A stretch of 64,000 nt of DNA from an uncultured Paracoccaceae bacterium (GTDB taxonomy: Bacteria > Pseudomonadota > Alphaproteobacteria > Rhodobacterales > Rhodobacteraceae). The stretch lies in assembly GCA_947495795.1 (NCBI GenBank), contig CANMAI010000016.1, positions 1 through 64,000 on the forward strand, in the 5' to 3' direction. Below are positions 36,329 to 60,515 of the stretch, one piece after another (positions within the stretch are counted from its first letter, which is position 1; every line of letters starts with the position of its first letter). The position numbers and the translations under genes were made by a program. Under the pieces are notes generated by a model, which worked only from the letters and a program-made list of their open reading frames with translations, ran no database searches and was not told the origin of the DNA.

Positions 36329-37267
36329 ATGCCCTATCTCGATCACACCGCTTTCGTCAATTCGCGCCGCGATGAGCGCAGCCTCGGCCACCACACGCTC
36401 CGGGCCTACGCCCAGGATCTGCGCACCTTCGCGCGCTTTAGCAGGGCCCATCAGCTCACCGATCCGTTGTCGAGAGACGACGTCCTCGCCTACCACCGGC
36501 ATCTGCGCGACGAGTTGGGCGCCAAGCCCGCGACCATCGAGCGGCGCCTAGTAACCCTCAAGTCTTACTTCGCCTGGAGGGCAGAGCGGAACAATGCCCT
36601 GCCCTCCCCATTCGCCGATGTCCGTATAACTGTGAAGCTCCCAAGGCGCCTACCGCGGCCAATCGATCGCGACACTCTAAGGGCAGTTCTTCAGGCCCAT
36701 GACTGCGCAACTGATCCGCTGTCGACTCCAGGCACAAACCACACGGTACCAGACGCGCAAAATGCCGTTACGATCTTGATCATCAAGTTACTGATCGTAA
36801 CGGGGCTCCGCATCAGCGAACTCACCAATCTGAAGGTCCGTGACGTCTCGCCGGACGGCGGCGAAATCCTCGTGCAAGGCAAAGGCAGCAAGGAACGGAT
36901 CGTCTTCGTGCCGAACCGAGAGCTGCAGGAGGAGCTTCAACGCTTCTGTCAGATACGATCCAAAGACGGCTCGATTGCCTCGCCACTGTTCCTCAACATG
37001 GCCGGGCGCCGGCTCCGCGCGGCCACCTTCCGAAAGCGGCTGCGAGCGCTATCCAAGCGCCTTAGCATTGAACCGCATCTGACCCCGCACCGTTTCCGGC
37101 ACTCGGCCGCGACGCTCCTGATCGAAGAGGGTATCGACATTCGTATGGTCCAGGCGCTCCTTGGACACGCAAACCTCAAGACGACGGAAATATATGTGCG
37201 GGTTTCGAACCATGCGCTGCGACGCGCATTGGAGCGGGCGGATATTCTGGAAGTCCTAAGAAACTAG
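36329..37267 (+). CDS. Tyrosine recombinase (XerC/D-like)
   Basis: 312 residues. N-terminal SAM-like core-binding domain (about residues 10-100) and C-terminal catalytic domain with the full set: Arg161 (GLRISELTNL), Lys188 (GKGSKERIV), His254 and Arg257 (HRFRHSAATLL), His280 (LLGHANL) and the nucleophile Tyr289 (TTEIYVRVS). AAAGGAG lies 7 nt before the ATG. It is just outside site C, one of three related dyads in the window, and lies between the catabolic island and the defence island. The obvious proposal is that it integrated or exchanged modules at these sites. No transposase or transposon ends are near, so it is not part of a recognisable insertion sequence. Confidence 0.92.
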   Translation: MPYLDHTAFVNSRRDERSLGHHTLRAYAQDLRTFARFSRAHQLTDPLSRDDVLAYHRHLRDELGAKPATIERRLVTLKSYFAWRAERNNALPSPFADVRITVKLPRRLPRPIDRDTLRAVLQAHDCATDPLSTPGTNHTVPDAQNAVTILIIKLLIVTGLRISELTNLKVRDVSPDGGEILVQGKGSKERIVFVPNRELQEELQRFCQIRSKDGSIASPLFLNMAGRRLRAATFRKRLRALSKRLSIEPHLTPHRFRHSAATLLIEEGIDIRMVQALLGHANLKTTEIYVRVSNHALRRALERADILEVLRN

Positions 37268-37392
37268 GGCGGGTCTTGGTCGTTAATGCAAATCAGTGCC
37301 CTACACTGACTGTAAAGCGAACGCGTCGGGTAGTAGTTTCATAGCCAATCCGATTTAATGACTTCGATTTCTAGCATCTGAGGCACTTTGAC

Positions 37393-39120
37393 ATGCAGAT
37401 TCGTCATATCTCGATCCAAAACTTCAAAGGCATCAAAACGCTGAAGTGGACTCCGGATAGCGCTTTCTGTTGTTTAATTGGTTCGGGAGATGTGGGAAAA
37501 ACAAGTATTCTTGACGCAATAGAAGCAACGCTGTCCACACGTTGGATCACCTTCGCTGAAGCAGACTTTGTCGATTGTGACACCAGCAATGAAATACTAG
37601 TTGAGGTTACAATTGGTGAATTATCGACCGAACTAAAATCGGACGAGCGATTTGGTCTCTATACCCGAGGTTGGACTAGCTCAGGCGATGTGCGCGACGA
37701 ACCCGCTGGCGACGATCAACCAGTTCTGACTGTCAGGCTGTCGGTCGATGCGACACTGGAACCTGTATGGGAACTAGTGTGTGACCGATCAGACCGACCA
37801 AGGACACTTTCAAACCGGGATCGCTCGCACTTTGGTTTGGTGAGGCTTTCGGGAAGTGACGCTCGACATCTGGCCTGGGGCCAAGGATCCGTTTTAGCAA
37901 GGCTGACCGACAACACGGATGAAACTGCACTCCGCCTAGCCGGAGCCTATCGGCGAGCTCGGGAAGGCGCAGACTTCAGTGATATACAAGAGCTATCCGG
38001 GTCGGCGAGAGAAGCTGAGAAGTCGGCCAAAGAGCTGGGAGCATATGTCAGCGGAAAATATCAACCTGGTCTCGAACTCGGTCGATCCGGGTTTTCTTCT
38101 GGCTCGATAGCGTTGCACGATTCAGGTGTTCCATTGCGCCAAGCTGGGCTTGGCACAAAAAGGCTTGCAACGCTCGCAATCCAAAAGTCAGGAATACAAG
38201 CAGGCGCGATAATCCTGATCGACGAGATTGAGAACGGCCTTGAGCCACATCGGATTATCGGAGCGATTTCTCAAATTAAGTCCGATCAGAGATCATCAAC
38301 GAATGCGAATGCACCAACTGGCCAGATTCTTATGACGACGCATTCCGACGTAGCACTTGCAGAGGCTGGCGGCTCTAGCCTTCGGATTGTTCAAAGGGAT
38401 CACAACACGCGAAAGATGAACATCCTTGCTCCCAAGACCGCCGATACCCTTAAGCCAATACTTCGTTTCGCGCCTCGTGCCCTGCTAGCAAAGCGGGTGC
38501 TTGTAATCGAAGGATACACCGAAGTTGGAATACTTCATGGAATAAAGGAATTTTGGCCTCAATTGCACGAAGGCAAACCAATTGAACAACTTGGTGCGGC
38601 TTTGGTAGACGGCAACGGGCATCAGGCTCCAAGCATCGCAAAAGCTATTCGAGAGCTTGGCTACTCCGCTTGTTTATTCCGAGACTCTGATAGCGCCTTA
38701 GGGGAGCAGGAACTAAAAAGCCTAGAAGCCGCAGGCATCCCAGTCATTCAATACGCGGGCACGTGCAACACAGAGCAAGCCATTTTTATGGCAGCCGATG
38801 ACGCATGTTTTGGCGAGTTACTCGACTTTGCAATGGCCGAGCATGGAGCAGAAGCCGTCGCCTCCAGTATTGCAAGCAAAATCGATGGTTTGACGCCGGT
38901 GAACGCACAGTCGCCTCACTCTGAGTGGACGTTCTCGCAAGAGATCAGTCAGGAAGACTTGCGGAAACTGGTTGGTGAAGTCGCACACAAAAAGAAATGG
39001 TTCAAAGAGCTTAGGTTGGGTCGCGAGGTGTCTCCCTTGGTATGGAAAAGCATCCAAGCTAACAAAGGAAGCGATCTGGCTAAGACTGTTTCAAAGGTCG
39101 AGAACTGGCTTTATGGCTGA
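37393..39120 (+). CDS. gajA: Gabija GajA-like ATPase/TOPRIM nuclease
   Basis: 575 residues, the usual length of GajA. An OLD-type ABC ATPase with Walker A GSGDVGKTS (residues 30-38) and the Walker B ILIDEIENGLEPH is followed by a C-terminal TOPRIM domain: VLVIEGYTEVGIL (catalytic Glu), LVDGNGHQAPSIAKAI and LFRDSDSAL (D-x-D). In Gabija, GajA is a nucleotide-gated DNA nicking enzyme that forms a complex with GajB and acts when phage transcription or replication lowers NTPs. The C-terminal residues overlap the next gene by 8 nt, as in known gajAB pairs. The gene is more AT-rich than the plasmid backbone, and its own promoter probably lies in the 125-bp gap after the recombinase. Confidence 0.9.
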   Translation: MQIRHISIQNFKGIKTLKWTPDSAFCCLIGSGDVGKTSILDAIEATLSTRWITFAEADFVDCDTSNEILVEVTIGELSTELKSDERFGLYTRGWTSSGDVRDEPAGDDQPVLTVRLSVDATLEPVWELVCDRSDRPRTLSNRDRSHFGLVRLSGSDARHLAWGQGSVLARLTDNTDETALRLAGAYRRAREGADFSDIQELSGSAREAEKSAKELGAYVSGKYQPGLELGRSGFSSGSIALHDSGVPLRQAGLGTKRLATLAIQKSGIQAGAIILIDEIENGLEPHRIIGAISQIKSDQRSSTNANAPTGQILMTTHSDVALAEAGGSSLRIVQRDHNTRKMNILAPKTADTLKPILRFAPRALLAKRVLVIEGYTEVGILHGIKEFWPQLHEGKPIEQLGAALVDGNGHQAPSIAKAIRELGYSACLFRDSDSALGEQELKSLEAAGIPVIQYAGTCNTEQAIFMAADDACFGELLDFAMAEHGAEAVASSIASKIDGLTPVNAQSPHSEWTFSQEISQEDLRKLVGEVAHKKKWFKELRLGREVSPLVWKSIQANKGSDLAKTVSKVENWLYG

Positions 39121-40513
39121 AGATCGACTGGTTGTTGAGGGCGAAAACAGTTCGGTAATCGCGCCAGCTGGCTTCGGCAAAACGGAGACAATAGCGAAGG
39201 CCGCAGGCCATTGCCGACGTGCGCTGATTTTGACCCATACGCATGCAGGCGTGCAAGCTGTCCGTGCCCGCCTTCGGAAGCTAGAAGTCCCCCATGGTCG
39301 TGCGAGTGTCGATACGTTTGCTGGCTGGTGCATGAAATACTCCAACAGCTTCCCGAAAACGGCTCAACCGCCAGGTTCACTTCCCCAGGGAGGGGAGTGG
39401 GACGTACTCTACAAAGGAACAAGAGACGCTCTAGAGGTCGCTGCGGTAAGGCAAATTGTGGCCGCATCTTACGACAGAATTCTCATTGACGAGTACCAAG
39501 ACTGTAATCCACATCAGCATGAGGCGGCGCTTGCCCTTAGCACGATTGTTCCAACGACGATATTTGGCGACCCCATGCAAGGTATTTTCGAATTTGCGGG
39601 AGCCTCGCTCGACTGGCAAACAACGATTTTCCCACGGTTTCCGCTCATAGCGGAGCTCAAAACTCCGCATAGATGGGAGAAGCACAATCGAAGCTTGGGC
39701 GAATGGATAAGCGATACCCGCAAACGGCTGATCGCGGGGCATGAAATCGAACTTGATGATGAGCGGATCAAATGGAGGCAAAGCAGTGATGCTTTCGACA
39801 TGGGTGTGTTGTTCGAAGGTTTGGATCGCGAAGCAGAAAAAGTCGCTGCTATTCACTGTAGGAAGGGCACGTGCATAAATTTAGCACGGGCAACAAATGG
39901 TGCATTCCAGGCGATCGAAGAATTAGCCGCTAACCGAATGCAAGAATTTGCTCGCGATTGGGATCACTCAACGCATGATCGCGCGTATGATCAAGTGATC
40001 CGCGGGCTCTTCTCCGATTGTTTTCGCCAAAAAGAGAAATCTGCTGATGGCTTGGAAGAGGATCATTCGGCTGTAGAGCAACTGATGCATGAGTTGGTCA
40101 AGCAATTGTCTGGCGCGGAGCCAGCACTAGCGGCAAGTGGGTTGCTCTATGCCGCCAGAGATCACCCCAGGTGGCGGCTGTTTAGAAGCGAACTCTGGCG
40201 GGACTGTGAACGCGCCATATCGGAGGTTGTAAATGGTAGGTGCTCAACAATGGCGGAAGCTGCGGAGGTCGTTCGCCAGAGGAGCAATCATATTGGGCGG
40301 CAACTACCTCGCCGAACCGTTTCCACTCCACTTCTCTTGAAAGGGTTGGAATTTCAGGACGTCGTGATCCCCTATGCGCCGCATTTCAATTTTGAGGAGC
40401 AAGCTCAGGCGAAGCTATTCTATGTGGCGATCTCACGCGCAACTCGCTCTCTCGTCATTGGAGCTCCAAGTAAGGCTTTGCGGTTTCCACAACCGTTACT
40501 TCGGCAAACCTAG
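39113..40513 (+). CDS. gajB: Gabija GajB-like UvrD/PcrA-type helicase
   Basis: 466 residues. SF1A helicase motifs in order: Walker A APAGFGKTET (motif I, about residues 18-27), VDTFAGWCM (Ia), ILIDEYQDCN (II), IFGDPMQGIFEFAG (III), then an HRW element (IV), LLLKGLEFQDVVIPY (V) and LFYVAISRATRSL (VI). GajB senses DNA ends and hydrolyses ATP to activate GajA. It starts inside the end of gajA (8-nt overlap), is slightly shorter than the reference GajB of about 490 residues and lacks no helicase motif. A reverse transcriptase gene follows 61 bp downstream in the same orientation. Confidence 0.9.
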   Translation: MAEDRLVVEGENSSVIAPAGFGKTETIAKAAGHCRRALILTHTHAGVQAVRARLRKLEVPHGRASVDTFAGWCMKYSNSFPKTAQPPGSLPQGGEWDVLYKGTRDALEVAAVRQIVAASYDRILIDEYQDCNPHQHEAALALSTIVPTTIFGDPMQGIFEFAGASLDWQTTIFPRFPLIAELKTPHRWEKHNRSLGEWISDTRKRLIAGHEIELDDERIKWRQSSDAFDMGVLFEGLDREAEKVAAIHCRKGTCINLARATNGAFQAIEELAANRMQEFARDWDHSTHDRAYDQVIRGLFSDCFRQKEKSADGLEEDHSAVEQLMHELVKQLSGAEPALAASGLLYAARDHPRWRLFRSELWRDCERAISEVVNGRCSTMAEAAEVVRQRSNHIGRQLPRRTVSTPLLLKGLEFQDVVIPYAPHFNFEEQAQAKLFYVAISRATRSLVIGAPSKALRFPQPLLRQT

Positions 40514-40574
40514 CTGATAGGTTCTAACGAATGCATTTAGTCAAAGACCAATCATTGGTAAGGGATGTTTTTTC

Positions 40575-42218
40575 GTGGCAAGCAAGAGTGTAATTTTCCA
40601 AAGACTACTCGAACGGGGATTCTATCCTCGTGAATTGCCTCCCTGTTTCAGAACCGTAAAGTTCGGGACCCTGCTTGCTTCGAAGCCGGAATACCTCAAG
40701 CCGCAAAAAGACTTCTCAGGTGAGATTGCTTTCCTTGATGGCGCAACTTTTCAAGGTAACCATAGGACCTTTGGCGTCATCAATCCGATCAACTATGCAC
40801 TACTTTCGCAGTTTTTGGCGGATAATTGGCCTCAGATTGAAAACGTTATGGACCTGAGCAACTTTTCTGCCTTCAAGATCGTGTTTCCAAATAACGTTGC
40901 GGTCGGGGGGAGAGCTTTCCAGAGGTCTTCGTTTTCGGGAAAGCTCAAGAAACAGGCATACCTATCCAGTGCGTACCCGTCAGTTGTCCACCTTGACATT
41001 AACAGATTCTACGGCTCCATCTACTCGCACTCAATTCCCTGGGCGGTACTTGGAAAGCCTGAAGCCTTGAAACAGCACAAGGCGAAGAAGCTAGACGCGC
41101 ATTGGAGTGCGGAACTTGATCGCTTAGTTAGAGCTTGCAACCGCAACCAAACAATCGGGATCCCAATCGGTCCGGACACCTCACGGGTAGTTTCCGAGCT
41201 CGTGTTGTCTCGTATTGATCATGAACTGAAGAAAAATGGGCCTGGCCTGCGCAAAAGGCAGGTTTTTCACAACATTGATGACTACGAGATTGGGGTGGAA
41301 AAGACCACGGATGCGGACAGAGTCATCGCACGGTTCGAAAAAGAGATCAGACAGTTCGAGCTTAGGAGCCACGAGGGAAAGACAGCAGTTTTTTCTGGCG
41401 AGCTACCTGAAAACCTCCGTTGGGAGCCCAAGTTCAATCTTTTGAATGGTTTAGAGGAAACTGAGTTCCTAGATGGACTGTTTGCGCTACTGGCTAGTGA
41501 ACGACAGGCTCATCCCGGGTCGAATATTGTAGGCTACGGTTTGAGTAGGTTTGCGAAGAAAATTGCTTCTTGCTCGGACAAAGACCTTTCCTTGCGTCAT
41601 CTTCAAACACTGCTTTATTCGTCACCACGATTTGTCAGCTGGGTGGCTCCACTATTTGTCGGCCTTAAGGGTGGGGATGACCTCGATCGAGCACAAAAAA
41701 GAATGCTACGCTGGGGCTTGGAGGAGTGCTCGCGAAGGCATGATGTTGTCTCGCTGTTGTGGTTTTTGTACCTCCACATTCAATTTGATCTCAAGGTGTC
41801 AAAGGCTCACAAGAAACTATGCTTCGAGGTCGAGTCGGTACTGGTCGACCTTGTCTTGGCACACGCGGACCACAATTCGCTCTTGAAGGGAGGGTTTGCC
41901 GAGGCTTCTGGGCGGTACGCCAACGTCGCTCTTAGTACTTCATCATGGTTGTTCCTCTATGAGACTGAGGTTCGTGGATGGAAGGCGGTAACCGGCACAA
42001 GTAAAATTGGTACATCCGACGACCCCAACAAATTTTTCAAGCTTATGAAGGATAATGAGGTCCACTTTTACGACGTTGCCGCTTTCGGAGTATCCGCGTT
42101 CCAATGGGGCCTAGATGAAGACGATTTCAACCCGAGTGATCACGATTTAGATGCGGAGCTCGATTATGAAGAATTTGATCCTGATGACGACGAGACAGAC
42201 GATTACTTCTTGTACTGA
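40575..42218 (+). CDS. Reverse transcriptase, defence-associated type
   Basis: 547 residues. RT motifs: VVHLDINRFYGSIYSH (motif A, Asp141), GIPIGPDTSRVVSELVLSRID (motif B region, 195-215) and FHNIDDYEIG (motif C, Asp235-Asp236). The usual Y-x-D-D is here N-I-D-D. The rest, about 300 residues, is helical, and the last 40 residues are strongly acidic and end in DDYFLY. GTG start with TAAGGGATG upstream. The enzyme resembles the unclassified/DRT and Abi-type RTs that act in phage defence, not group II intron or retron RTs: no msr-msd is visible and there is no maturase or endonuclease domain. It follows gajAB closely, so a joint defence locus is suggested; partners within the known DRT classes were not recognised. 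Confidence 0.85.
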   Translation: MASKSVIFQRLLERGFYPRELPPCFRTVKFGTLLASKPEYLKPQKDFSGEIAFLDGATFQGNHRTFGVINPINYALLSQFLADNWPQIENVMDLSNFSAFKIVFPNNVAVGGRAFQRSSFSGKLKKQAYLSSAYPSVVHLDINRFYGSIYSHSIPWAVLGKPEALKQHKAKKLDAHWSAELDRLVRACNRNQTIGIPIGPDTSRVVSELVLSRIDHELKKNGPGLRKRQVFHNIDDYEIGVEKTTDADRVIARFEKEIRQFELRSHEGKTAVFSGELPENLRWEPKFNLLNGLEETEFLDGLFALLASERQAHPGSNIVGYGLSRFAKKIASCSDKDLSLRHLQTLLYSSPRFVSWVAPLFVGLKGGDDLDRAQKRMLRWGLEECSRRHDVVSLLWFLYLHIQFDLKVSKAHKKLCFEVESVLVDLVLAHADHNSLLKGGFAEASGRYANVALSTSSWLFLYETEVRGWKAVTGTSKIGTSDDPNKFFKLMKDNEVHFYDVAAFGVSAFQWGLDEDDFNPSDHDLDAELDYEEFDPDDDETDDYFLY

Positions 42219-42365
42219 ACACCGCTTGCTTAATTCGTGCTAATTTTCTTTTGTTTCGGCTCATGCAGTCATCTCTCTCCGGCTGCAGTGGGCGGCTTTT
42301 GCCAGCCGCAGCGCAGTACCGATGGCGCTCAATGAACAACCTGTTTCAGCTGAAAAGAGCAGCGC

Positions 42366-42926
42366 TTAGAGCGTTAACCATTGTCTCAATTTATCAACGC
42401 TTTGTGTTGAAATCGTTGAGATGCTTAGCCCTGTATCCGTCGGGGTCACCCAAAAACCTGCGTATTTTGGCAAATCAGAAGGAAGAAATGCATGCGGGAC
42501 TTCTTCTGCACTCCTCGTGACGTAAGTGTGTCTTCCATCGACAAAAGTGATCAACGCGATCCCATGTTCTGCCGCAAATTCGATGGCACCACGTTGAAAC
42601 CCAGACGTTGAGAAGATGATACCTTTGTGCGAGCCAGTCTCCTGAATTTTGCCCTTAAGGATCATTGCCACATCACGTTCAACTGGACGCTTCAGTTTCT
42701 TGCATTCAACCAGAACTGCTATCTCTGCACCTTCAAAAATCTTGAATTTCGCCACGGCATCAATGACATATTCGCCCCCGCTGCCAGGCAATGTCTCAAG
42801 GTGCTGAACAGAAAAGCCAGCAAGCTTCCCTTCAGCTTCCTCAAGCCATGAGACAACTTGTTTTTCATATTCTGAAGGCGTCACTTCAATCGGGCTGCTT
42901 GGTTCCCAAGGCAATTCTCTCGTCAT
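42366..42926 (-). CDS. Mrr-like restriction endonuclease (PD-(D/E)XK)
   Basis: 186 residues from the chosen ATG. The Mrr catalytic core is clear: YVIDAVAKF (Asp), VLVECKKLKRPV (E-x-K) and GIIFSTSGFQRGAIEFAAEHGIALI, the helix-strand motif that marks the Mrr family. Mrr-type enzymes are type IV restriction nucleases that cut modified DNA. The start is uncertain: the open frame extends to 43064, but the next gene on the plus strand starts at 43075, and the segment beyond 42926 has little protein-like content, so I prefer 42926. It converges on the RT gene, with a GC-rich stem (42284-42314) in between that could serve as a bidirectional terminator. Confidence 0.8.
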   Translation of the reverse strand: MTRELPWEPSSPIEVTPSEYEKQVVSWLEEAEGKLAGFSVQHLETLPGSGGEYVIDAVAKFKIFEGAEIAVLVECKKLKRPVERDVAMILKGKIQETGSHKGIIFSTSGFQRGAIEFAAEHGIALITFVDGRHTYVTRSAEEVPHAFLPSDLPKYAGFWVTPTDTGLSISTISTQSVDKLRQWLTL

Positions 42927-43074
42927 GAAACTGTTTTCCCGCCGTCTGGTAACCATCCAGCACAGGCTAGCGGTTACTGCAACGGACGTCTCCTCTTCTG
43001 TGACGCATCCCAGCATTGCGGCTGGCACGTAGACGGCGGCTTTGGGCTGGGCCATCTCCACCATTTTCAGCTAA

Positions 43075-43338
43075 ATGATCCTGATGACATACACTTTGAA
43101 CACATGGTGCGATCGTTTGGGACCAGCACTGAGCCAGCTCGCCGAGGTACAAGAACCCTTTCTAGAGGAATACTGGCAAGTGAACAGTTACCCGACACGA
43201 GTCACATTTAACGGAGTGGATGAAACACCCTTTCCAAAGGATGACATTGCCCATCTATATGATCTCGCGCGCATGGCCTCGCGATCCGCTGATAAGAAAC
43301 ACTACAAGCCGCTTTGCGAAGTGCTTGACCCGGTATGA
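43075..43338 (+). pseudogene. N-terminal fragment of a HEPN protein gene, ended by in-frame TGA
   Basis: 87 codons ending in TGA at 43336-43338. The same reading frame continues open past this stop through GILRSHPSLARALGTRIG into the gene starting at 43450, and the flanking peptides join into a plausible single chain. This suggests that 43075-44466 was one gene of about 463 residues with one nonsense change (for example TGG to TGA), or that the downstream part is re-started at 43450. No motif is recognised in this fragment. See the companion entry. Confidence 0.55.
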
Positions 43339-43449
43339 GGTATCCTGAGGTCACACCCATCACTCGCTAGGGCACTTGGGACGCGCATCGGTAATGACGA
43401 GTTTCACGTCAAAATATTCAACGGGACGTCGCTCACTTGGCTTACACAG

Positions 43450-44466
43450 ATGGTGGCTGGGCTTCTGGAGCGCGCACACGACCATGGAGACGGCGGGTAT
43501 AGGAAAGCTGCAAACGAACTTGGATCGATCCTTGATCTGAGTTCGACGACCTTAGAAGTTGATGTCCCAAACGGGCTCGATTTGGGCTACGACTTACTGC
43601 TCTTCCATGGTCCCGAAATTGGCAACGAATTTGAGATTCAGGAGGGTTTAGTCGTCAAACCCGCTGCCGCTCTCTCAGACTATCTGGATCGCGAATGGAT
43701 CCGGGATTTTGTGCCAGAGGAGATGGATCGACGTGATTGGCGGCAGATCGGCGCTGTGGTGCGACCGTTCAAATGGCGACCTGCGTTCCGGAGGAAAACT
43801 GACTATCGGGAGGAGCATCCCAGCTGGCCACCAAGATTTGAGGATGGCGCTCTCACGTTTTTGGAGATCCTGTCCATCGCGAACCAAACTGCGATCTTAC
43901 CTTTCATGTTGATGCACGGATGTGTGCATCGATCCGCACATGGCTTGTTGGGGTTGGCTCACAGTCAAGATGGCTACCAACCGATAAGTCTCGTCGGACG
44001 TCGGTACGATCCTTTTCGAACCCCTCCACAGCTCCGGGACAGCTCGATCGATTTGGCCAAAGAAGCCTTTAGCAAACGAAGCGATGAGGAATTTGAACGC
44101 CTTGCACCAATCATTCATCGGCTTTCAGAAGCCTTGGCGCGCTTGGGGCGTTTTGGTGCCAACGATCGAATTCTGGATGTTTCGCAATCTTTGGAATTGA
44201 TGTTCAGGCCCAAAGGCGGAGGGATAAGCCGAAAACTCCAAGACGGGATGGCCGAGTTGCTGGGTGTCGATGAAGCGCACAAGGACGACATAAGAACCGC
44301 GATCAAGCAATTCTATGATGTTCGCTCAGCGGTCGTACATGGCGCAACCGACGCGAGGCGCAAACGCAATTTGGAAGATCGCCAACGCGCATTTATCAGC
44401 GGCTTCAATTTGACCCAGCAGGCGCTCTTCAAGATGCTACTGAATGATGCTGGAGCCCGTAACTAA
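43450..44466 (+). CDS. HEPN-domain protein (C-terminal Rx4H motif)
   Basis: 338 residues. The last 110 residues resemble Apea-like HEPN domains: RILDVSQSLELMF, LQDGMAELLGVDEAHKDDI, then YDVRSAVVHG with Arg292 and His297 in the Rx4H RNase motif. HEPN proteins with Rx4H are metal-independent RNases acting as toxins or defence effectors. The N-terminal 200 residues are unassigned; WIRDFVPEEMDRRDW and the aromatic-rich middle could be a sensor domain. The frame is open further upstream to 43339, and an in-frame TGA separates it from 43075-43338, so the true gene may be longer. The role is inferred from the HEPN motif and from the neighbouring nucleases. Confidence 0.7.
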   Translation: MVAGLLERAHDHGDGGYRKAANELGSILDLSSTTLEVDVPNGLDLGYDLLLFHGPEIGNEFEIQEGLVVKPAAALSDYLDREWIRDFVPEEMDRRDWRQIGAVVRPFKWRPAFRRKTDYREEHPSWPPRFEDGALTFLEILSIANQTAILPFMLMHGCVHRSAHGLLGLAHSQDGYQPISLVGRRYDPFRTPPQLRDSSIDLAKEAFSKRSDEEFERLAPIIHRLSEALARLGRFGANDRILDVSQSLELMFRPKGGGISRKLQDGMAELLGVDEAHKDDIRTAIKQFYDVRSAVVHGATDARRKRNLEDRQRAFISGFNLTQQALFKMLLNDAGARN

Positions 44467-44703
44467 TTCTGGGCAGTTATGATTGTCCGCAGGCCATGAG
44501 TTCGAATATCTCCAGATCGCGCACTTGCGGCGAATGGCGGCTATGCGGGCTGCGGGCGCAGCATCTTGACTGAGTGTCCAAGGTCTGGAATGGGCCGACG
44601 CCTTAGCAATTCTCAAATGAAGTTATTCAGCCGTATTTTTTGCCAGAGGCTGGATCAATTTGCCTCAAAGCCGCATCCTGGCGATAAAGAATTGAGTAAT
44701 CAC

Positions 44704-45198
44704 ATGGGACGCCGCAAGACAGCAATCTACAAAGACCTGCTTCAGAGGTATGAGGCTGCAGCAAAGGCAGGCTTCTTCTACGAAGCAAACTGGTTTGCAT
44801 ACGCCATCATGGAAGACCGAACCCGAAGCATCGTATCGAACTCCGGTGATGGGCTGGGACATGGCGGCAGTATGTCGGAGAAACTTGTGCTCATCTTCGA
44901 ACGTCATGACGCCAAGGTCGCAAAAGTTGTCAACGGGCGGCCCGTCAGAGTGCGTGGAAAGAAAGAAAAGATCCCGAAGTACCCTCATCTTCATACACTG
45001 AGGCGTAGTGATGTGCTGATCATGCGACGATGGACGAAGAAACGAAACGAGCTGTCCCATGCGCTTGCGTCGGGACACCTTCGCTTGCCGGAGGCCGATC
45101 ATTCCTCCAAAAGGCTTTCGCGAGTTGCTGATCGGCTGTTGCGCCGTTTGTGCGCCGCTGCCAGGCGTCTGAAAAAGCTTCGAGCCAGGGAGGAATAA
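44704..45198 (+). CDS. Small HEPN-like protein with Rx4H motif
   Basis: 164 residues beginning MGRRKTAIYKDLLQRYEAAAKAG, all-helical in appearance. The motif RNELSHALA (Arg114, His119) fits the HEPN Rx4H signature, with a preceding hydrophobic helix (EANWFAYAIMEDRTRSIVSNS). The C-terminal 40 residues are very basic (RRLCAAARRLKKLRAREE), which suits RNA binding. The open frame extends upstream to 44566, but the first 46 residues look non-native and the ATG at 44704 has TTGAG upstream. It lies between a HEPN gene and a nuclease gene in the same orientation. Function unknown. Confidence 0.6.
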   Translation: MGRRKTAIYKDLLQRYEAAAKAGFFYEANWFAYAIMEDRTRSIVSNSGDGLGHGGSMSEKLVLIFERHDAKVAKVVNGRPVRVRGKKEKIPKYPHLHTLRRSDVLIMRRWTKKRNELSHALASGHLRLPEADHSSKRLSRVADRLLRRLCAAARRLKKLRAREE

Positions 45199-45283
45199 GG
45201 AGCGAAATAACCGCCAGCGCATGCACCCAAGAGACAATGCATTTTACTGTATGGCCTCTGACCGAGAAATTGTAGGACCGGAA

Positions 45284-45736
45284 ATGGACCGAGAGAAACT
45301 GGAGATATTGCTAAGCGACTCACTGAGGGAACTCTATGTGAGGGACCTGGGCATGCTCGAACGGGACGCGAATGAGAGGACGATTACAGGCAGACTGGGG
45401 AGATACATAGAAGATCGAATCGAAGGGTATGATGTTACCGTCGAATACAACAGACACGGTATTGATCCAAAAGAAGTCGAACTGCCAGATAACGACGGTG
45501 TTCTAACCCTGCAAAGGGTAATGCCGGATATCATAGTTCATCATCTGGGCGACGACAGTGACAACTTGCTTGTGATCGAGGCAAAGAAGACATCCAACCC
45601 GGCGCCCGATAACCGGGACATCGAGAAGCTTACAGCTCTCAAGCAGAATATTGGGTACCGTTACGCGGTCTTCCTGAGATTACCCGTTGGCCGAGAGGCG
45701 GACGTGCGCTTGGTTCAAATCCGCTGGGTTGAGTGA
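45284..45736 (+). CDS. PD-(D/E)XK-type nuclease-like protein
   Basis: 150 residues. Helical N-terminus (DREKLEILLSDSLRELYVRD), then a restriction-nuclease-like core: VMPDIIVHHLGDDSDNLLVIEAKKTSN (Asp, then Glu-x-Lys in IEAKK) and DIEKLTALKQNIGYRYAVFLRLPVG. The spacing of D...E-x-K with following helix and strand suits PD-(D/E)XK enzymes. Start: an upstream ATG at 45221 is also open, but the ATG at 45284 has TAGGACC 7 nt before it. Together with three HEPN proteins around it, it could form a nuclease-effector array. Specific activity unknown. Confidence 0.65.
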   Translation: MDREKLEILLSDSLRELYVRDLGMLERDANERTITGRLGRYIEDRIEGYDVTVEYNRHGIDPKEVELPDNDGVLTLQRVMPDIIVHHLGDDSDNLLVIEAKKTSNPAPDNRDIEKLTALKQNIGYRYAVFLRLPVGREADVRLVQIRWVE

Positions 45737-45755
45737 GCCGGGCGAGGTTATTTAG

Positions 45756-46679
45756 GTGGCAAAGCCCGAACAGACCTACGACCTACTTGTCCCGCTTGAG
45801 ATGCCCAAGCAGACAACATTCAATGCTGGCCCCCACAGCCGTGCTCCAGGCATCAATGACGAGACTGCCTTTCGTTTCGCTACCTGGAACGCCTCATTCC
45901 ACGAGTTTGGTGAGATCCGCTACATTGTTTTGAGGCTCGGCCTGCCTCTTGTACGGATGCGAGAACTCCTGCCGACCATTTTCCTAAGGATTGCCCGGGC
46001 CTCGGTCGCTCTTGATGTGTCGATGAGACCGGTATCGCCACCCTTGACCGTGCTTTCCAATGGCGAACGCGCAGACCTGGATCGGCTCAGTGCGATCCCG
46101 TCTGGAGGCACGCCAGCGGTGCAACATAGAAGTTCGAGTTTCCAAGTTGGGTTGTCGGTCGAGCTGTTCAGCGATGCACTTGGCAAAGGTTTGTCAGTAG
46201 ACGACAATGCCGGCGCGTCCCGAATGTTTTCTGACGTCGATTTTGAAGCCACGCCAGACAGTAAGTTTGTTCTTCTGTCCACGATCCTGGAGCTGCTCTC
46301 TGTGAGACAAGCAAGGGACAAACAAGCTCAGGAGTTGCTGAATAAATGGAAAGCAGATGCCATGAAGGCAAAACGACAAGACCTTGCGCAAGCCTTGGAT
46401 CTGATGCGGTCGGAGTCAATCGGGACTTCAATCTTCGAACTGGTTTCGAAAGCGGCAAGGGCAGCGGGATGTGAGGAAAAGGTTGCTAAGACGTTCTCCG
46501 AAAGCGCGAGGGATGCCTACCGTAAGCGTGGCAAGCTCCTGCATGCAGGCGTTTCAGTTAGCAAAGAAGAACTTTCGACTTTGCGGTCAATTGTTCGCCT
46601 GGTGTTGGTCGGAGATACCAAAGGGACCCCCTTTACACCTATTGGCAATGGCGAATGGGAAGAGGGCGACAGATTCTGA
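45756..46679 (+). CDS. HEPN-like protein with C-terminal Rx4H motif
   Basis: 307 residues, GTG start with GAGG about 9 nt upstream. The C-terminal 130 residues are helical and end with YRKRGKLLHAGVS, giving Arg258 and His263 in Rx4H spacing, followed by EELSTLRSIVRLVL, a typical terminal HEPN helix. The N-terminal half (PKQTTFNAGPHSRAPGINDE; VLRLGLPLVRMRELLPTIFLRI) is unassigned and may sense a ligand or another protein. It starts 20 nt after the stop of the nuclease gene, so both are probably in one transcript. Third HEPN-type protein of the cluster. Confidence 0.65.
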   Translation: MAKPEQTYDLLVPLEMPKQTTFNAGPHSRAPGINDETAFRFATWNASFHEFGEIRYIVLRLGLPLVRMRELLPTIFLRIARASVALDVSMRPVSPPLTVLSNGERADLDRLSAIPSGGTPAVQHRSSSFQVGLSVELFSDALGKGLSVDDNAGASRMFSDVDFEATPDSKFVLLSTILELLSVRQARDKQAQELLNKWKADAMKAKRQDLAQALDLMRSESIGTSIFELVSKAARAAGCEEKVAKTFSESARDAYRKRGKLLHAGVSVSKEELSTLRSIVRLVLVGDTKGTPFTPIGNGEWEEGDRF

Positions 46680-47163: not shown

Positions 47164-47955
47164 CTATGCCAAAGGACAATCCTTCATGGTCCCGCAACAG
47201 GGCGTTTTTGACTGCTTGAGATCGTTCAGTAACTCCTGTTCTTGGGATCGGCGTTTGATCTCAAGACGATTGAGGCTCTCAATAACGTCCCGGTTCGGGC
47301 AACTTGCGCGCAAAATTGGACGATGGTCTTTTTGGCAATCGATTTTGCACTCGTGGCGCTCACAGGACCTCTTGCGGTACGGAAAATGAAGCCTCTTGCA
47401 GCCGCGAGGGCAAGGTGTTCTCAGGTTCACAAATCTTGACTTGTCCTTGCTTAACCGGAGCGGCGCATCGTGTAGAAACCCCGCCCCTCGAAAAATCGAG
47501 CTTAAGACTTCGTCTTTCCAACCAACAGTGTCTGCTACGCGTTCCATTTCAACTTGAGTGATGGCCGCATCTCCGTGGCTTAAACCTTGATGGATGGGCC
47601 AACGGCCAAATCTGGCAGCGTACTCTTGATTGGAGAGATACCTCGCCAGACTTTTCCACCAATCGCGCGCGGCTATCGGGCTCCCAACTGGCTTCGAGGA
47701 GTCTAAATGTAGGCAGAAGCTAGAGTCGGAGTTGATGTGACGCTCAACGCAACACTTCGGCAACTTCTGTTCGGCCTTGGTCTCATAGATCTTTATTCGA
47801 TCAGAAGCCAATTGCTCGACTACGAGGGAATAGACGTCGCCAAGCGCTCCGCTGTCGCGAACACAGGTGGCGCTGATTACTGCCCTTTTTAATTTTCTGG
47901 ACTCGACCTCAACCCAATCGGGTACTTGTTGGAATAGTTCATCGAGTGAGCTCAT
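47164..47955 (-). CDS. Cys-rich E2-like protein associated with the cyclase
   Basis: 263 residues. The middle carries CCVERHINSDSSFCLHLD followed by WWKSLARYLSNQEYAARFGRWPIHQGLSHGDAA, which resembles bacterial E2-like (ubiquitin-conjugating fold) proteins: an H-x-N-S-D-x-x-F-C-L segment with a candidate catalytic Cys, then W-x-x-L and a WP-x-x-x-x-LSHG turn. The C-terminal third has many cysteines (TPCPRGCKRLH, SCERHECKIDC, CCGTMKDC), probably zinc-binding. It overlaps the cyclase gene by ATGA, so the two are made together. E2-like proteins accompany some cyclic-nucleotide defence systems, where they condition the nucleotide synthase; that function is inferred here. Assignment to E2 is moderate. 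Confidence 0.55.
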   Translation of the reverse strand: MSSLDELFQQVPDWVEVESRKLKRAVISATCVRDSGALGDVYSLVVEQLASDRIKIYETKAEQKLPKCCVERHINSDSSFCLHLDSSKPVGSPIAARDWWKSLARYLSNQEYAARFGRWPIHQGLSHGDAAITQVEMERVADTVGWKDEVLSSIFRGAGFLHDAPLRLSKDKSRFVNLRTPCPRGCKRLHFPYRKRSCERHECKIDCQKDHRPILRASCPNRDVIESLNRLEIKRRSQEQELLNDLKQSKTPCCGTMKDCPLA

Positions 47956-49559
47956 TTCTTCTCAAGGTGCGCACGCGTATCCGTAACAACCGACGGTGCG
48001 TGGGCTCGCGCGTACGGTGCGGCAACTTCTGCGACTGCCGGAGTACTCACGGCAGTGCTGACATCATCAAACTGAAGATCTCCGGCCATCCCGTCACTTG
48101 AAATCAGATCGTTCAAGGCCACAGGAACAAGTTTGAGCACCTCTGGTCCAAACCGCGTCTCGTTATGAGCACAGGATTTTTGCATAGCTTCAGAAACACT
48201 CGTAGTTTTGCTTGATGCAACACGAACCGAGCGGTCACCTTGTATTCCGATCTTGGAGATCGGTGTCTGACCGTACTCGACACCAATGGCCAATCCCAAT
48301 TCGTTCACTCCCATCAAAGCCGACTTGCATAGATCAAACGAAGACCGGATTGCGCCAGCGCACTTGGCTGCTTCCATTATGGTTTCTTCAGAGTTTGTCT
48401 CCCGGTGATCACCTTCCGCATGCAATGCGTGAATGCAGTCTCCAATGAAACGCACTTTGCGCCCGCCAAAGTCGTCATGAACAACGTTTTGAAACTCCTC
48501 TCGGATCACATGAAGGGCTTTGACGGCATCGGCAATCATACCATGCGCGATAGCACGGTCGATGTAGTCCGTGAATCCCGACAGGTCAGCATAGATTGAT
48601 GTAAGCGGCATCCTAATCGACTTGCTCGGAGAGATGTCCTCGAACTTAATCTCAGCAAGCGGCGGGCGCTTGTAGTGAAATACAAAATTCGGATTGGTGG
48701 GATCGGGCACTGAACGTGCTTGGATGGCCGTCCGCCATTCATTGATCACCCCGTCTAGTGAGCGCGGCATCTGATCGAAGCCAAGTTCGATGCCCTCACG
48801 GATATCCCTTGACGCGACAAGACGCCCATATGTCGCTTCGTCCAACTGGAGCAGGGATTCAAAGCTCGAACTAAGTTCAGCTTGGCCTATTGCAGTCCTC
48901 ACGCGATTTGAAAGATAGATGCCGGGTTCGTCACCGTCTGCTAGCTTGGCGGCATGGTTCGCTGGACTGCCCAAGAACATAGGCTCCTGCTCGTGCCCGG
49001 TCCCATTGTTGATCGCAACGCAGCGTCCTGCATCCACTCCGATACGGAAACGTGCTTCGAACTCACCATCGGCGAGTTCTTTGTTAGCCTGTTCAGCGAC
49101 ATAACGAAGGTCTCGTACGAAGGCCAAGGCGTTCGACACAGTTTCCTCGGTGACGCCGTTTTCCCCTTCCGCGACTACGACAGCATGCATCCGGCCGCCG
49201 TGAAAATCCACCCGCTGAGCAGGGCTGTGTTCCATCGCACGGTCGCAAGCGCTATAGTGCAGATGTAGGAACTTCAGCGCCTTCGCATGCGATGCTTCCG
49301 TTTCCCTGCGCTCTTCCATTCGGTAGTCGTCGTAGTTCACCAAAGTCACATAGACATGCACCGCATCCACAACCACGGCGCGGCCCTTGGGCAGTTCGTA
49401 CAGCGGAGGAGTTCCCCGATGACCCTCCGCTAGCAACGCTTTGCGGCTCTCCAAAAACTGGGGAAGGTAGTCTTCATGGAACTTCTGGACTTCGATAGCG
49501 GGCGCTTCATCAATCAGTTTTGTTATGCGCTTCTGCGCAACATTGTGTCGCCAAGGCAT
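47952..49559 (-). CDS. Tandem class III nucleotide cyclase (Pycsar-like)
   Basis: 535 residues with two cyclase-like halves. Half 2 (about 315-470) has both metal-binding Asp: SIYADLSGFT (Asp325) and RKVRFIGDCIHAL (Asp374). Half 1 (about 60-220) has VVVDAVHVYVTLVNYDD and FHGGRMHAV, where the second Asp is Gly, but keeps FLGSPANHAAKLA, the N-x-x-x-K/R transition-state motif, which half 2 lacks (SVRVASSKTTSVS). The halves could therefore form one composite active site as in mammalian cyclases. Cyclases with a cyclic-nucleotide-binding membrane effector next door are the hallmark of Pycsar defence (cCMP or cUMP). AGGAG precedes the ATG. Divergent from the CapW-like gene, with a 127-bp gap. Confidence 0.82.
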   Translation of the reverse strand: MPWRHNVAQKRITKLIDEAPAIEVQKFHEDYLPQFLESRKALLAEGHRGTPPLYELPKGRAVVVDAVHVYVTLVNYDDYRMEERRETEASHAKALKFLHLHYSACDRAMEHSPAQRVDFHGGRMHAVVVAEGENGVTEETVSNALAFVRDLRYVAEQANKELADGEFEARFRIGVDAGRCVAINNGTGHEQEPMFLGSPANHAAKLADGDEPGIYLSNRVRTAIGQAELSSSFESLLQLDEATYGRLVASRDIREGIELGFDQMPRSLDGVINEWRTAIQARSVPDPTNPNFVFHYKRPPLAEIKFEDISPSKSIRMPLTSIYADLSGFTDYIDRAIAHGMIADAVKALHVIREEFQNVVHDDFGGRKVRFIGDCIHALHAEGDHRETNSEETIMEAAKCAGAIRSSFDLCKSALMGVNELGLAIGVEYGQTPISKIGIQGDRSVRVASSKTTSVSEAMQKSCAHNETRFGPEVLKLVPVALNDLISSDGMAGDLQFDDVSTAVSTPAVAEVAAPYARAHAPSVVTDTRAHLEKK

Positions 49560-49686
49560 GGCAGCTCCTGTTCAAGACGCCTCGCGCAGCACAAGACGGT
49601 GTAAATTTGTATGTCTACCACAGAAATTAGGACTTCAGTACTTTTTGTCAAGGTGCTACACTCTGGTACATCGGGAGGAAACCGCC

Positions 49687-50568
49687 TTGAACCCATTCAA
49701 AGACCTAAAAACAAGTATCAGACGACGTTTCGAGTTCATCGAGTTTTGTCTCAATTGGAGTGGGCACGTTGGTCGCCCACAACTGCAGAATCAGTTTGGA
49801 ATTTCGCCGCAGCAAGCCACGAATGATCTGACCAACTATTTGGACGGCTGCCCTGGAAACATGCAATATGACCCTAGGGAACGTGCGTACGTCACCAGTC
49901 CAGGCTTCAAGCCCAAACTGATTTCAGGCGAAGCATCTGAATATTTCATGCATCTTGAGATGTTCTCTAGAGGCTTCAGAACCAAGGAAGAAATTTGGAT
50001 TAAGGAACTTCCAGAAGTTTCGACGGTGTCGGTGTCTTCACGTCCTCTCGACAAGCGGATCGTTCGAACAGTGGTTCAAGCGATAACGACAGATTCCGCA
50101 TTGCACTGTGTATATGCATCCATCAATTCCGGCATAGACAGCGAGCGTACGCTGGTTCCAACCGCGCTGGTCAGTGACGGGCATCGCTGGCACGTCAGAG
50201 CCTACGACTTAGAGAAAAGGCGTTTCTCCGATTTTGTACTGACGCGCATGGCGACTCCAAGGGTGGTGGCAAAGCCTGATCAGGCCATACCGCCCGACGA
50301 TGAATGGAACGAAGAAATCACGGTGACGTTGTCAGCGGCATCCACTCTCAATGAGTGGCGTAGACAGCAGCTTGAGCATGAATATGAAATGGAGAACGGG
50401 ACGCTAGAGGTGCCCACGACAAAGGCGATGCTCTTCTACGTACTGCGTCAATATGGCTTCAATCCCTACGATCGAGAGGATGACGGCATGATGCGCAATG
50501 TTAGTAGCTTCCAACTTGAGGTCTTGAATTCCAAAGAGGTAGAGGAATGTTTGCGTCGAAGAAACTAA
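49687..50568 (+). CDS. CapW/BrxR-type WYL transcriptional regulator
   Basis: 293 residues from a TTG start that has GGGAGGAAACC 2 nt before it. N-terminal winged helix RRFEFIEFCLNWSGHVGRPQLQNQFGISPQQATNDLTNYL, then YDPRERAYV, matching CapW/BrxR proteins; the WYL domain follows (SALHCVYASINSG, TLVPTALVSDGHRWHVRAYDLEKRRFSDFVLTRM, where H-R-W-H-V-R-A-Y is the WYL-type core) and a C-terminal WCX-like region. Such repressors control CBASS, BREX and other defence operons and are released by DNA-damage or nucleic-acid signals. Its position between the divergent cyclase operon and the effector gene suggests it controls both. It overlaps the effector gene by 22 nt. Confidence 0.85.
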   Translation: MNPFKDLKTSIRRRFEFIEFCLNWSGHVGRPQLQNQFGISPQQATNDLTNYLDGCPGNMQYDPRERAYVTSPGFKPKLISGEASEYFMHLEMFSRGFRTKEEIWIKELPEVSTVSVSSRPLDKRIVRTVVQAITTDSALHCVYASINSGIDSERTLVPTALVSDGHRWHVRAYDLEKRRFSDFVLTRMATPRVVAKPDQAIPPDDEWNEEITVTLSAASTLNEWRRQQLEHEYEMENGTLEVPTTKAMLFYVLRQYGFNPYDREDDGMMRNVSSFQLEVLNSKEVEECLRRRN

Positions 50569-51446
50569 GACAACCTCCAGAAATTCAGACGAATTCCGTT
50601 CTTTCCGATGACGAAATCGAACGGGACTTGGAAACGCTGAAGCGCAACGAACTCGTTGCGGGAGACGAAGATATTGCGTGGCTAGTTCTGGAAAACTCGG
50701 ATGTCCACACCTTTAGTAAGGGTAGTCAGCTCATTGGTGAGGGCGATCAAGTTGACGATGTATTTTTTCTTCTTTTTGGCGACGTGGTGGTGATCCGAAA
50801 AGACAAAGGAAAGTTGGATACACTCAGTACACCCTCCACAGTCGGAGAGTTGGCAGCAGACGAACCTGGTCAACCCAGAACTGCATCTGTGATTTCAAGT
50901 TCAGATAGACTGAGGACACGTGCTCTTCCAGGACGAGTGTTTCGCGAGATCAGAGACAGCAATCCGAAATTTGCTTCCGCGCTTAAGAAGCTCATTAGCA
51001 ACATGAACCGCAGGAAGATTGCACAAAGCTTAGAGCAACGGTTCTTGGCCAAAGTTAGCAAACCACTACTGACCGGATGTGGTAGTTTTCTGATATCTGC
51101 ATTGTTGTTCTGGAACTTTACAGACCTGACTGCCGGCCAATTACTATCGCTGAGTGCGCTAGCTGCAGCTATCGTGGTTGGCCTGGCGACGTACTTCAAC
51201 CACCAGCACCGCTACGGAAGAGCGTTCTCGATGGCGCTTCTTGCCACAATACTGTACGGCTCACACTTCGGCGTCAGCTACTTCTTCTTCGTTGATGGGC
51301 GTACTGCTCCCTTCCCTTTCTTTTGGAAATTCACCGCCAATCCCGAGCAAAGCCCCTTAGTCGCCTCCGTATTTCTGGCGGTGCTATTTCTATTGTGCAT
51401 TGTTTGCGGAGTCTTCGACTACTTGAGAAACCACAGAGCAAACTAA
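50547..51446 (+). CDS. Cyclic-nucleotide-binding membrane effector (PycTM-like)
   Basis: 299 residues. The N-terminal half is a CAP-type cyclic-nucleotide-binding domain: VHTFSKGSQLIGEGDQVDDVFFLLFGDVVVIR, and the phosphate-binding cassette GELAADEPGQPRTASV (G-E-L-A and R-T-A-S). After a basic helix, four hydrophobic segments follow between about residues 170 and 295 (SKPLLTGCGSFLISALLFW; LLSLSALAAAIVVGLATYF; MALLATILYGSHFGVSYFFF; PLVASVFLAVLFLLCIVCG). This matches the PycTM effectors that disrupt the membrane on binding a pyrimidine cyclic nucleotide. The ATG is inside the CapW-like gene (22-nt overlap). The signal is presumably made by the divergent cyclase. Confidence 0.8.
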   Translation: MFASKKLRQPPEIQTNSVLSDDEIERDLETLKRNELVAGDEDIAWLVLENSDVHTFSKGSQLIGEGDQVDDVFFLLFGDVVVIRKDKGKLDTLSTPSTVGELAADEPGQPRTASVISSSDRLRTRALPGRVFREIRDSNPKFASALKKLISNMNRRKIAQSLEQRFLAKVSKPLLTGCGSFLISALLFWNFTDLTAGQLLSLSALAAAIVVGLATYFNHQHRYGRAFSMALLATILYGSHFGVSYFFFVDGRTAPFPFFWKFTANPEQSPLVASVFLAVLFLLCIVCGVFDYLRNHRAN

Positions 51447-52206: not shown

Positions 52207-52208
52207 GC

Positions 52209-57825: not shown

Positions 57826-57891
57826 GTTGTTTCTTGACCTCCTCTGCTCGAAAGAAGGCAAAAGAATTGCGTTCACCGAATCGGTGTTTCG

Positions 57892-57978
57892 TTGACAACG
57901 ATTTGCGAGAGGTGCTATCTAAAAGCTGCAACACAGATAGATGAGCTCTCCATCCGCAAGGTGGGGGGCTTTTCTTTT
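57892..57978 (+). ncRNA. repABC counter-transcribed RNA (incompatibility RNA)
   Basis: In the repB-repC gap and antisense to the repABC mRNA. Promoter TTGACA (57892-57897) and TATCTA (57916-57921), 18 bp apart. The RNA should start near 57928 and end at a hairpin (57944-57970, eleven pairs with one bulged base and GCAA loop) followed by TTTTCTTTT. Such RNAs pair with the repC leader and lower RepC translation; position, orientation and terminator agree with the known design. Confidence 0.85.
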
Positions 57979-58058
57979 GCCGTTAAATCACTGCATGTTT
58001 GTTCCTGTTTCTAACCTCGTATGAGGGTCCGTCGAGCTGTCGTTGCAGCCCCTGCCTC

Positions 58059-60445: not shown

Positions 60446-60515
60446 TGTCACCGCTCTCCATCGATTCTCTTGCGGAATCGCTTCAGCAGAAAAATAGCAC
60501 GGTTTTCGGTGTTTT

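Follow-up and report, generated by a model that had tools for sequence, protein, structure and literature searches.

The window analysed here, a 64,000-nucleotide stretch of contig CANMAI010000016.1 from an uncultured Paracoccaceae bacterium, carries a Gabija pair (gajA and gajB) followed by a gene for a defence reverse transcriptase (RT), which on sequence and fold is assigned to the DRT6/UG12 group. The features of the locus are listed below, with residues numbered as in the encoded proteins.

37393-39120, plus strand: gajA, class 2 OLD-type nuclease (ABC ATPase plus Toprim), 575 amino acids (aa); from PADLOC, Pfam and motifs
39113-40513, plus strand: gajB, UvrD-like helicase/ATPase, 466 aa; from PADLOC, Pfam and a motif
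40514-40574, plus strand: gap of 61 bp between gajB and the RT gene; from reading of the sequence
40575-42218, plus strand: DRT6/UG12 defence RT, 547 aa, GTG start; from PADLOC and fold
40995-40997, plus strand: codon of the motif A Asp141, with D in 33 of 33 DRT6-like RTs
41271-41282, plus strand: motif C, N233-I234-D235-D236, with D235 and D236 in 33 of 33
42096-42215, plus strand: disordered acidic C-terminal tail, residues 508-547, ending in ...DDYFLY; predicted local distance difference test score (pLDDT) below 50

The gajA and gajB genes overlapped by 8 bp, with the ATG of gajB lying inside ATGGCTGA, and all three genes were on the plus strand. Within the gap between gajB and the RT gene, the stretch AAGGGA, which resembles a ribosome-binding site, was found at 40560-40565. 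The coordinates and this stretch confirm the layout given in the first-pass annotation, namely an overlapping gajA-gajB pair and, 61 bp further on the same strand, an RT gene with a ribosome site of its own. The GTG start and the length of 547 aa recurred in two relatives of the RT. A simple scan for sigma-70-like sites on the plus strand found none in 37200-42500, and no stable fold was found in the 61-bp gap (z 0.47).

GajA matched the PADLOC GajA model PDLC04168 over residues 1-573 with 544.5 bits (E 7.5e-164), and GajB matched the PADLOC GajB model PDLC04173 over nearly its full length with 376.5 bits (E 5.2e-113). Pfam recognised AAA_21, AAA_15 and OLD-like_TOPRIM in GajA and UvrD-helicase in GajB. 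The Walker A, Toprim and DEXQD positions, assigned by motif search without alignment, were GSGDVGKT at residue 30, VIEG (E373) and RDSD (D431/D433) in GajA, and DEYQD at residue 126 in GajB. E373, D431/D433 and DEYQD resemble the active-site residues reported for Gabija, E379, D432/D434 and DEXQD (PMC10781630). The PADLOC scores of all three proteins are far above chance level, the three genes look intact, and the upstream pair is, as judged from its sequence, a complete Gabija of the PDLC04168/PDLC04173 kind.

Among the defence RT models, the RT gave its best match to PADLOC Drt6 PDLC03748, with 400.6 bits over residues 8-505 (E 2.8e-120), and the PADLOC Drt4 models ranked after it with 266.4 and 246 bits. 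The score against NCBIfam Drt4 NF041749 was 186.7 bits, below the cut-off of 450 bits. When the PDB was searched with the RT sequence alone, the first match was 9wy8, with an E value of 5.8e-35 compared to 2.7e-27 for UG15. In a profile search the E values were 2.1e-201 and 1.2e-66, respectively; this profile was made of 11 rows, namely the RT, its relative at locus L001 (loci of relatives are designated by L numbers) and nine distant relatives from viral contigs, and the latter may have biased it towards 9wy8. An AlphaFold model of the RT from 11 rows (pLDDT 79.3; predicted template modelling score 0.82) retrieved 9wy8, 'Cryo-EM structure of the hexameric DRT6', at Foldseek rank 1 (E 1.3e-22). 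In the structure comparison (VIA), the model matched 9wy8 with Z 38.8 and a root-mean-square deviation of 2.6 over 483 residues, which is the whole protein except the tail, compared to Z 33.8 for DRT4, 26.5 for AbiK and 23.2 for Abi-P2. By these sequence and model comparisons the RT is a new, divergent DRT6/UG12 enzyme.

The residues D141, D235, D236 and K269 were invariant across the 33 DRT6-like RTs aligned, the window RT included, and the catalytic Asp triad is thus intact. Residue 233 was Y in 17 of these RTs and N in five (the window, L001, L030, L031 and L039). The N-I-D-D motif therefore departs from the norm at a position that tolerates variation; as a hallmark of the subclade of the window RT it was rejected, since L039 also has N and L032 has A. 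The first-pass description of a defence-type RT with N-I-D-D in place of Y-x-D-D was borne out and can be narrowed to DRT6/UG12, with the N in motif C found in four other RTs as well.

The two nearest relatives of the RT (L001 and L030; 84-85% protein identity) each follow a type III restriction operon at a distance of 40 bp. The mod proteins of these operons scored 584 and 553 bits (PADLOC MTase_III) and the res proteins only 39 and 43 bits (REase_III). When positions 30001-60000 of the window were compared with L001 and L030 by blastn, there was one match each, at 75% identity, covering 40575-42216 and 40575-42218, respectively. No DNA match to either locus was found outside the RT open reading frame (ORF), neither in the gap preceding it nor in the 3' flank. 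The G+C content of the RT gene was 0.486-0.499 in the window, L001 and L030, compared to 0.51-0.53 for gajAB and 0.565-0.599 for the three type III genes measured in L001 and L030. In L001, a PDC-M56A-like ATPase (459 bits) and a small ORF were present between mod and res (L001:3522-4712), which was not so in L030, and this insertion would represent exchange of cargo within the restriction-modification (R-M) operon that precedes the RT. The neighbours were resolved gene by gene for L001, L030, L039 and L032. In L039 (L039:4121-13697) the RT gene was inside a type I R-M operon in the order hsdM, RhuM/Fic, hsdS, RT, hsdR, with a 4-bp overlap on both sides, and in L032 it stood behind an integrase gene. 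The genome match of L039 was reported with one in-frame TGA.

The Drt6 model was also searched against whole genomes in partly overlapping draws of 394 genomes from the family, 385 from the class, 398 from the phylum and 390 from the order. A match of at least 280 bits was taken as a DRT6 locus, and weaker matches (169 bits or less) were not counted. DRT6 was found in 16 genomes beyond the window's own, and together with L001, the only confirmed relative in genome_contigs, these gave 17 loci. Each was read for 8-9 kb per side, except that L035, L037, L038 and L068 were cut on one side (L068 at 1.2 kb upstream). Neither gajA nor gajB was found by BLAST in any of the 17 loci within the DNA covered, with GajA and GajB of the window and of plasmid locus L075 as queries; further Gabija families could escape these two. 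A UvrD-like match in L066 was rejected as gajB by size and domains, since it lies in a protein of 1706 aa that combines helicase domains of the DEAD and UvrD types. Outside the 17, two further weak matches were likewise judged not to be Gabija: in L045, where a truncated RT is preceded at 3-5 kb by UvrD-like stretches, and in L046, where an ATPase stretch of 75 aa lies at the far end. No gajA or gajB was found in any of the 26 loci on viral contigs that carry a related RT; several of these loci are short, flanks were partly cut, and their weaker RTs are not necessarily DRT6. A single-sequence scan of viral contigs gave three pattern-matching stretches with no relative among them, and in phages nine partial RT matches were obtained, none reaching 80% coverage. 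Within the genus, the RT was present in one of three genomes, the window's own.

In the converse search, eighteen gajAB relatives were opened, 11 of the window kind (three from other genomes and eight of 289 plasmid records) and seven of the L075 kind (of 48 records), and no RT was found beside gajAB in any of them in the DNA covered (tblastn with three RT queries, L075 serving as positive control). The closest of these relatives without the RT were L054, whose GajA is 57% identical to that of the window, and L106/L107, with 68% identity to the GajA of L075. A third core gene of Gabija would be expected to stay beside gajAB in relatives; the RT did not, and the linkage is, by these comparisons of loci, not conserved.

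The tree was built from 38 RTs and omits two fragments as well as 16 viral-contig loci out of 26. The window RT, L001 and L030 were grouped with support of 100/99, and together with L031 and L032 they formed a clade (100/100) apart from the clade of the plasmid RTs described below. With all 38 rows labelled, two changes of the gajAB label were needed, and for the grouped rows alone, 0 of 200 bootstrap trees permitted a single change. Clustering of the label in the grouped rows was not beyond that of shuffled labels, 209 of 500 shuffles being as low. Because the tree needs two changes and the two GajAB pairs belong to different families, two separate dockings behind Gabija are proposed, the one in the window being, on this reading, recent relative to its subclade.

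The proposed second docking is on Rhizobiaceae plasmids. Among 205 plasmid records with some RT match, seven covered 80% of the query; the RTs of six were 99-100% identical to that of L075, and the seventh (L078) had no gaj match. The order ATPase, helicase, RT was found in four of the four plasmid records opened (L074-L077), GajA was present in all six, and the distance between GajA and the RT in the two unopened records was the same as in the opened ones (operon accessions NZ_CP116686.1, NZ_CP148087.1, NZ_CP032928.1 and NZ_CP071458.1). In L075 the scores were 611.8 bits for GajA (PDLC00090), 583.8 bits for GajB (PDLC00103) and 516.8 bits for Drt6; the gap between gajB and the RT gene was 15 bp, and the RT was 27.7% identical to that of the window. 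In the four opened records the upstream flanks differed and the downstream genes were common, and the three-gene set stayed together. In Rhizobium lentis p4 (L074:541-7692), gajA is split by an IS4 element, with gajB and the DRT6 gene annotated as open, and this disruption amounts to a natural experiment on whether the RT persists without Gabija.

The first-pass annotation had proposed to test whether the RT accompanies gajAB more often than by chance. These findings indicate that the RT is not regularly found with gajAB and that one other gajAB-RT lineage exists; two lineages, the window's own included, are too small a sample for an estimate of enrichment. The findings support the suggestion in that annotation that the RT is a DRT/Abi system in its own right beside Gabija: DRT6 is described as consisting of one gene (PMC13213688), 17 of 17 loci lacked gajAB within the DNA covered, and the nearest RTs stand behind type III R-M operons. 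That annotation had also held that a link to Gabija would fall if homologues usually stood alone or beside unrelated genes and the RT protected without gajAB; the genomic half of this was observed, the homologues usually adjoining unrelated genes, without gajAB. On this comparison of loci the RT gene looks like a movable, stand-alone defence gene and not a third part of Gabija. No description of a Gabija-DRT6 pairing was found in the literature searched, which did not include all key papers, so an earlier one may exist. A model in the PADLOC DRT set named 'RTasHel' matched the GajB of L075 with 186 bits and that of the window with 54.8 bits, and if the name means RT-associated helicase, helicase-RT neighbours have been noticed earlier.

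The tail of the RT contains 11 D/E in its last 20 residues, so that the first-pass annotation was right in calling it strongly acidic, but the feature is not peculiar to this protein. The mean number of D/E in the last 20 residues was 8.0 in the 33 DRT6-like RTs compared to 2.65 in 196 neighbouring ORFs of at least 250 aa. The final residue was Tyr or Phe in 20 of 33 RTs and 12 of 196 background ORFs, and 27 of 33 RTs, compared to 68 of 196 background ORFs, carried a Tyr among their last 25 residues. Five outgroup rows had been set apart before these counts, whose significance is overstated because the RTs are interrelated, some nearly identical, and some background ORFs are perhaps not genes. 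An aligned Tyr was found at Y547 in nine of 33 rows and at Y544 in 14 of 33. Acidic, Tyr-bearing tails were also observed on DRT6-like RTs in prophage-like viral contigs (L082, L083, L084, L088 and L091), some of which, read by eye, adjoin phage tail genes.

An acidic tail with a Tyr or Phe end presumably resembles the C-terminal tip of single-stranded DNA-binding protein (SSB). Mimicry of the SSB tail was set aside in favour of a role in priming, in view of Y666 of DRT3b. In that enzyme DNA is started on Tyr666 in a C-terminal tail spanning residues 622-667, and Y666F abolishes both adduct and defence (PMC13174585, preprint). AbiK primes from Tyr44 near its N-terminus (PMC9508834), and for DRT4 a conserved tyrosine is named as the primer (PMC13314766). 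Because DRT3b primes on Y666, a tail tyrosine is preferred here, and by this analogy Tyr544/Tyr547 would be the first candidate for a DRT6 primer. An N-terminal primer like Y44 of AbiK was rejected, since Tyr17 aligned with Tyr in seven of 33 rows and Tyr40 in six of 33. Tyr150, close to motif A, was invariant and may be structural. The common acidic, tyrosine-bearing tail makes the start of DNA synthesis by DRT6 testable by point mutation.

Taken together, we consider it likely that an autonomous DRT6 (UG12) antiviral polymerase docked as a whole ORF downstream of gajAB, on what is probably a repABC-type plasmid, and shares little with Gabija beyond, probably, a transcript. Transcription of the RT gene would continue from gajAB, and translation would begin at the ribosome site in front of the gene itself. 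From its kinship in sequence and fold, the product may form a hexamer of RT and helical-repeat domains of the DRT4/DRT6/AbiK type. By analogy with DRT4, AbiK and DRT3b, it would make single-stranded DNA (ssDNA) without a nucleic-acid template, begun on its own tyrosine, for which the mobile acidic tail, with a near-terminal tyrosine in most relatives, would be the best candidate, as with Y666 of DRT3b. A phage protein that protects DNA ends, such as ORF55, might then stabilise the ssDNA, which would accumulate until the infected cell stops, as review statements on DRT4 and DRT6 suggest; Gabija would act separately, on linear phage DNA. The reported activator of DRT4 and DRT6 is a phage protein that shields the 3' ends of DNA (PMC13314766), and Gabija is reportedly licensed when phage proteins bound to DNA ends exclude RecBCD (PMC12407980, preprint). 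A common cue, phages that shield their DNA ends, is suggested by this comparison as a possible reason to keep Gabija and DRT6 together without a physical link.

Several points weigh against this account. The product chemistry of DRT6 is described as less well resolved than that of DRT4 (PMC13213688), and the product, trigger and defence activity of the window RT are predicted from its kin. Because the simple scan showed no obvious promoter of its own, the RT may depend on gajAB expression. The available sequence sets the limit of each neighbourhood, which for L068 is 1.2 kb upstream. The idea of a tail tyrosine as primer fails for six of the 33 DRT6-like RTs, which lack a Tyr within their last 25 residues, and L063 and L064, which have the highest Drt6 scores, have no acidic tail. 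The plasmid gajA-gajB-RT operon, built from different lineages of all three genes, is arranged as a functional unit would be, although it stands for a single recent lineage and, of its six records, three have the same length, 520,191 bases.

That plasmid operon is also a ground for regarding GajA, GajB and DRT6 as a true three-gene unit, in which ssDNA or DNA ends made by the phage-triggered RT would load or activate GajB or GajA, or mark the infected cell. Order and strand are alike in the two lineages, with gaps of 61 and 15 bp, the trio stayed together in the four opened plasmid records despite differing upstream flanks (the downstream genes being common too), and a model in which GajB senses DNA termini is cited in PMC10681800. 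The nearest kin of the window RT, in contrast, lacked gajAB in four of four cases (L001, L030, L031 and L032), as did the loci that share a clade with the plasmid RTs (L033, L065, L066, L068 and L081); the closest opened gajAB kin (L054 and L106/L107) lacked the RT, and Gabija is described as two proteins. Coupling through ssDNA is further opposed by the GajA:GajB complex itself, for which the assays of PMC10681800 gave no sign of helicase activity or DNA binding. We therefore regard a three-gene unit as unlikely; it was rejected as the leading account because the linkage is not conserved, and was kept as a rival on account of the Rhizobiaceae plasmids. The same plasmids leave room for the first-pass idea of an add-on that makes cDNA as a signal or decoy for GajAB, for which no direct support was obtained. 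A version in which the unit was assembled convergently, both systems sensing end-shielding phages and the tail-tyrosine-primed ssDNA of the RT acting as a mobile 'DNA end', loading GajB and licensing GajA, is held to be improbable; if true, it would couple DNA synthesis to DNA cleavage.

Plain juxtaposition in a defence island, with separate promoters, neither transcript nor trigger in common and a short gap by accident, would fit the Mrr, PD-Lambda-3, Pycsar and AbiE genes that the window also carries, and the distance of 117-619 bp to the nearest upstream ORF (at least 100 aa, mechanically picked) in 12 of the 17 other DRT6 loci. It fits poorly with the common strand, the 61-bp gap free of promoter-like sites, and the five of 19 loci (window, L001, L030, L039 and L075) in which the RT gene lies 61 bp or less behind, or overlaps, a recognised defence operon, and we give it only a small chance. 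A dependence of the RT on an overlooked noncoding RNA (ncRNA) template nearby, as for DRT2, DRT3a and DRT9, appears very improbable. Such RNAs can escape Rfam, and noncoding DNA could diverge beyond detection while the ORF stays 75% identical; against this, Rfam gave no family at gathering score over the whole 64 kb, the DNA identity to L001 and L030 (no blastn match between the gaps) ended at both ends of the ORF, the RT flanks folded no better than shuffles, and the nearest solved kin, DRT6, DRT4 and AbiK, are described as template-independent or as single-gene. The only retron RT model listed for the RT, NF038233, scored 18.2 bits against a cut-off of 235, which together with the Rfam result agrees with the earlier statement that no retron RNA is present.

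The autonomous docked RT thus remains the preferred explanation. The components are known, and the pairing of Gabija with DRT6 is real but loose and does not amount to evidence of a new Gabija subtype. The locus shows cleanly how an entire defence RT gene, with exact ORF boundaries, can stand behind Gabija in one place and behind type III restriction operons in others, and the arrangement of Gabija followed by DRT6 occurs in two separate lineages. Closeness to a known defence operon, even across a short gap, should not be taken as membership of that system.

Upstream of gajA, a XerC/D-like tyrosine recombinase gene was found at 36329-37267. Downstream of the RT gene, the stretch 42366-46679 is, from its gene content, probably more defence cargo. 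It includes an Mrr-type nuclease (42366-43064, minus strand), a 338-aa protein at 43450-44466 with no Pfam, PADLOC or NCBIfam match, and a PD-Lambda-3_A-like protein (45221-45736, 91 bits) with a 307-aa partner that gave no convincing match. A divergent Pycsar-like locus follows at 47164-51446. The PycC cyclase (47952-49559, minus strand; PADLOC 579 bits) adjoins a prokaryotic E2-domain protein (47164-47955, minus strand; 307 bits), a pairing worthy of attention. The opposite strand carries a WYL-domain protein and a cyclic-nucleotide-binding protein (50547-51446, plus strand), whose N-terminal part matched PADLOC TIR-type effector models with 118 and 100 bits and whose C-terminal part looks membrane-spanning by eye. 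An AbiEi (DUF6088)/AbiEii toxin-antitoxin pair was located at 51610-53219 (PADLOC 242 and 347 bits). Plasmid genes were found in 56509-60451 and 329-4188, including RepC (PF03428, 199 bits) and a ParA-like gene with, between them, a gene in the ParB position that had no Pfam match; the window also carries a MobA/VirD2-type relaxase and, by eye, a TraG/VirD4-looking gene. Because of RepC, the ParA-like protein and the relaxase, the contig is probably a mobilisable repABC-type plasmid.

Compared with known systems, the upstream genes follow Gabija in having gajA (OLD ATPase-Toprim) and then gajB (UvrD-like) with catalytic motifs found by motif search; Gabija, however, is described as two genes, and the RT was absent beside 18 of 18 opened relatives. 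The Rhizobiaceae plasmid operon has the same gene order and strand, with the RT closely behind gajB, and differs in its Gabija family (PDLC00090/PDLC00103) and in the clade of its RT, pointing to a separate origin. With DRT4/UG15 the RT shares the architecture, the hexamer family and the second-best PADLOC models, and differs in falling below the NCBIfam cut-off and in its lower fold score. AbiK and Abi-P2, which are reported as template-free, protein-primed polymerases, also combine an RT with a helical domain, but they are only 16-19% identical, and the AbiK primer Tyr44 is on an N-terminal loop, whereas the N-terminal tyrosines of the window RT, residues 17 and 40 (equivalence to Tyr44 unaligned), are not conserved. 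DRT3b is, like the window RT, a class 1 UG RT with a C-terminal tail, ending at residue 667 next to the primer Tyr666 (PMC13174585); sequence searches align only the RT core, and DRT3b works with DRT3a and an ncRNA. From the DRT6/UG12 enzyme of 9wy8 the window RT differs in being 25% identical and part of a divergent subclade with L001, L030, L031 and L032, in having N for Y in motif C and in standing third behind gajAB, whereas the full-length fold, the best PADLOC model, the single RT gene and the acidic tail seen in the alignment are shared with it.

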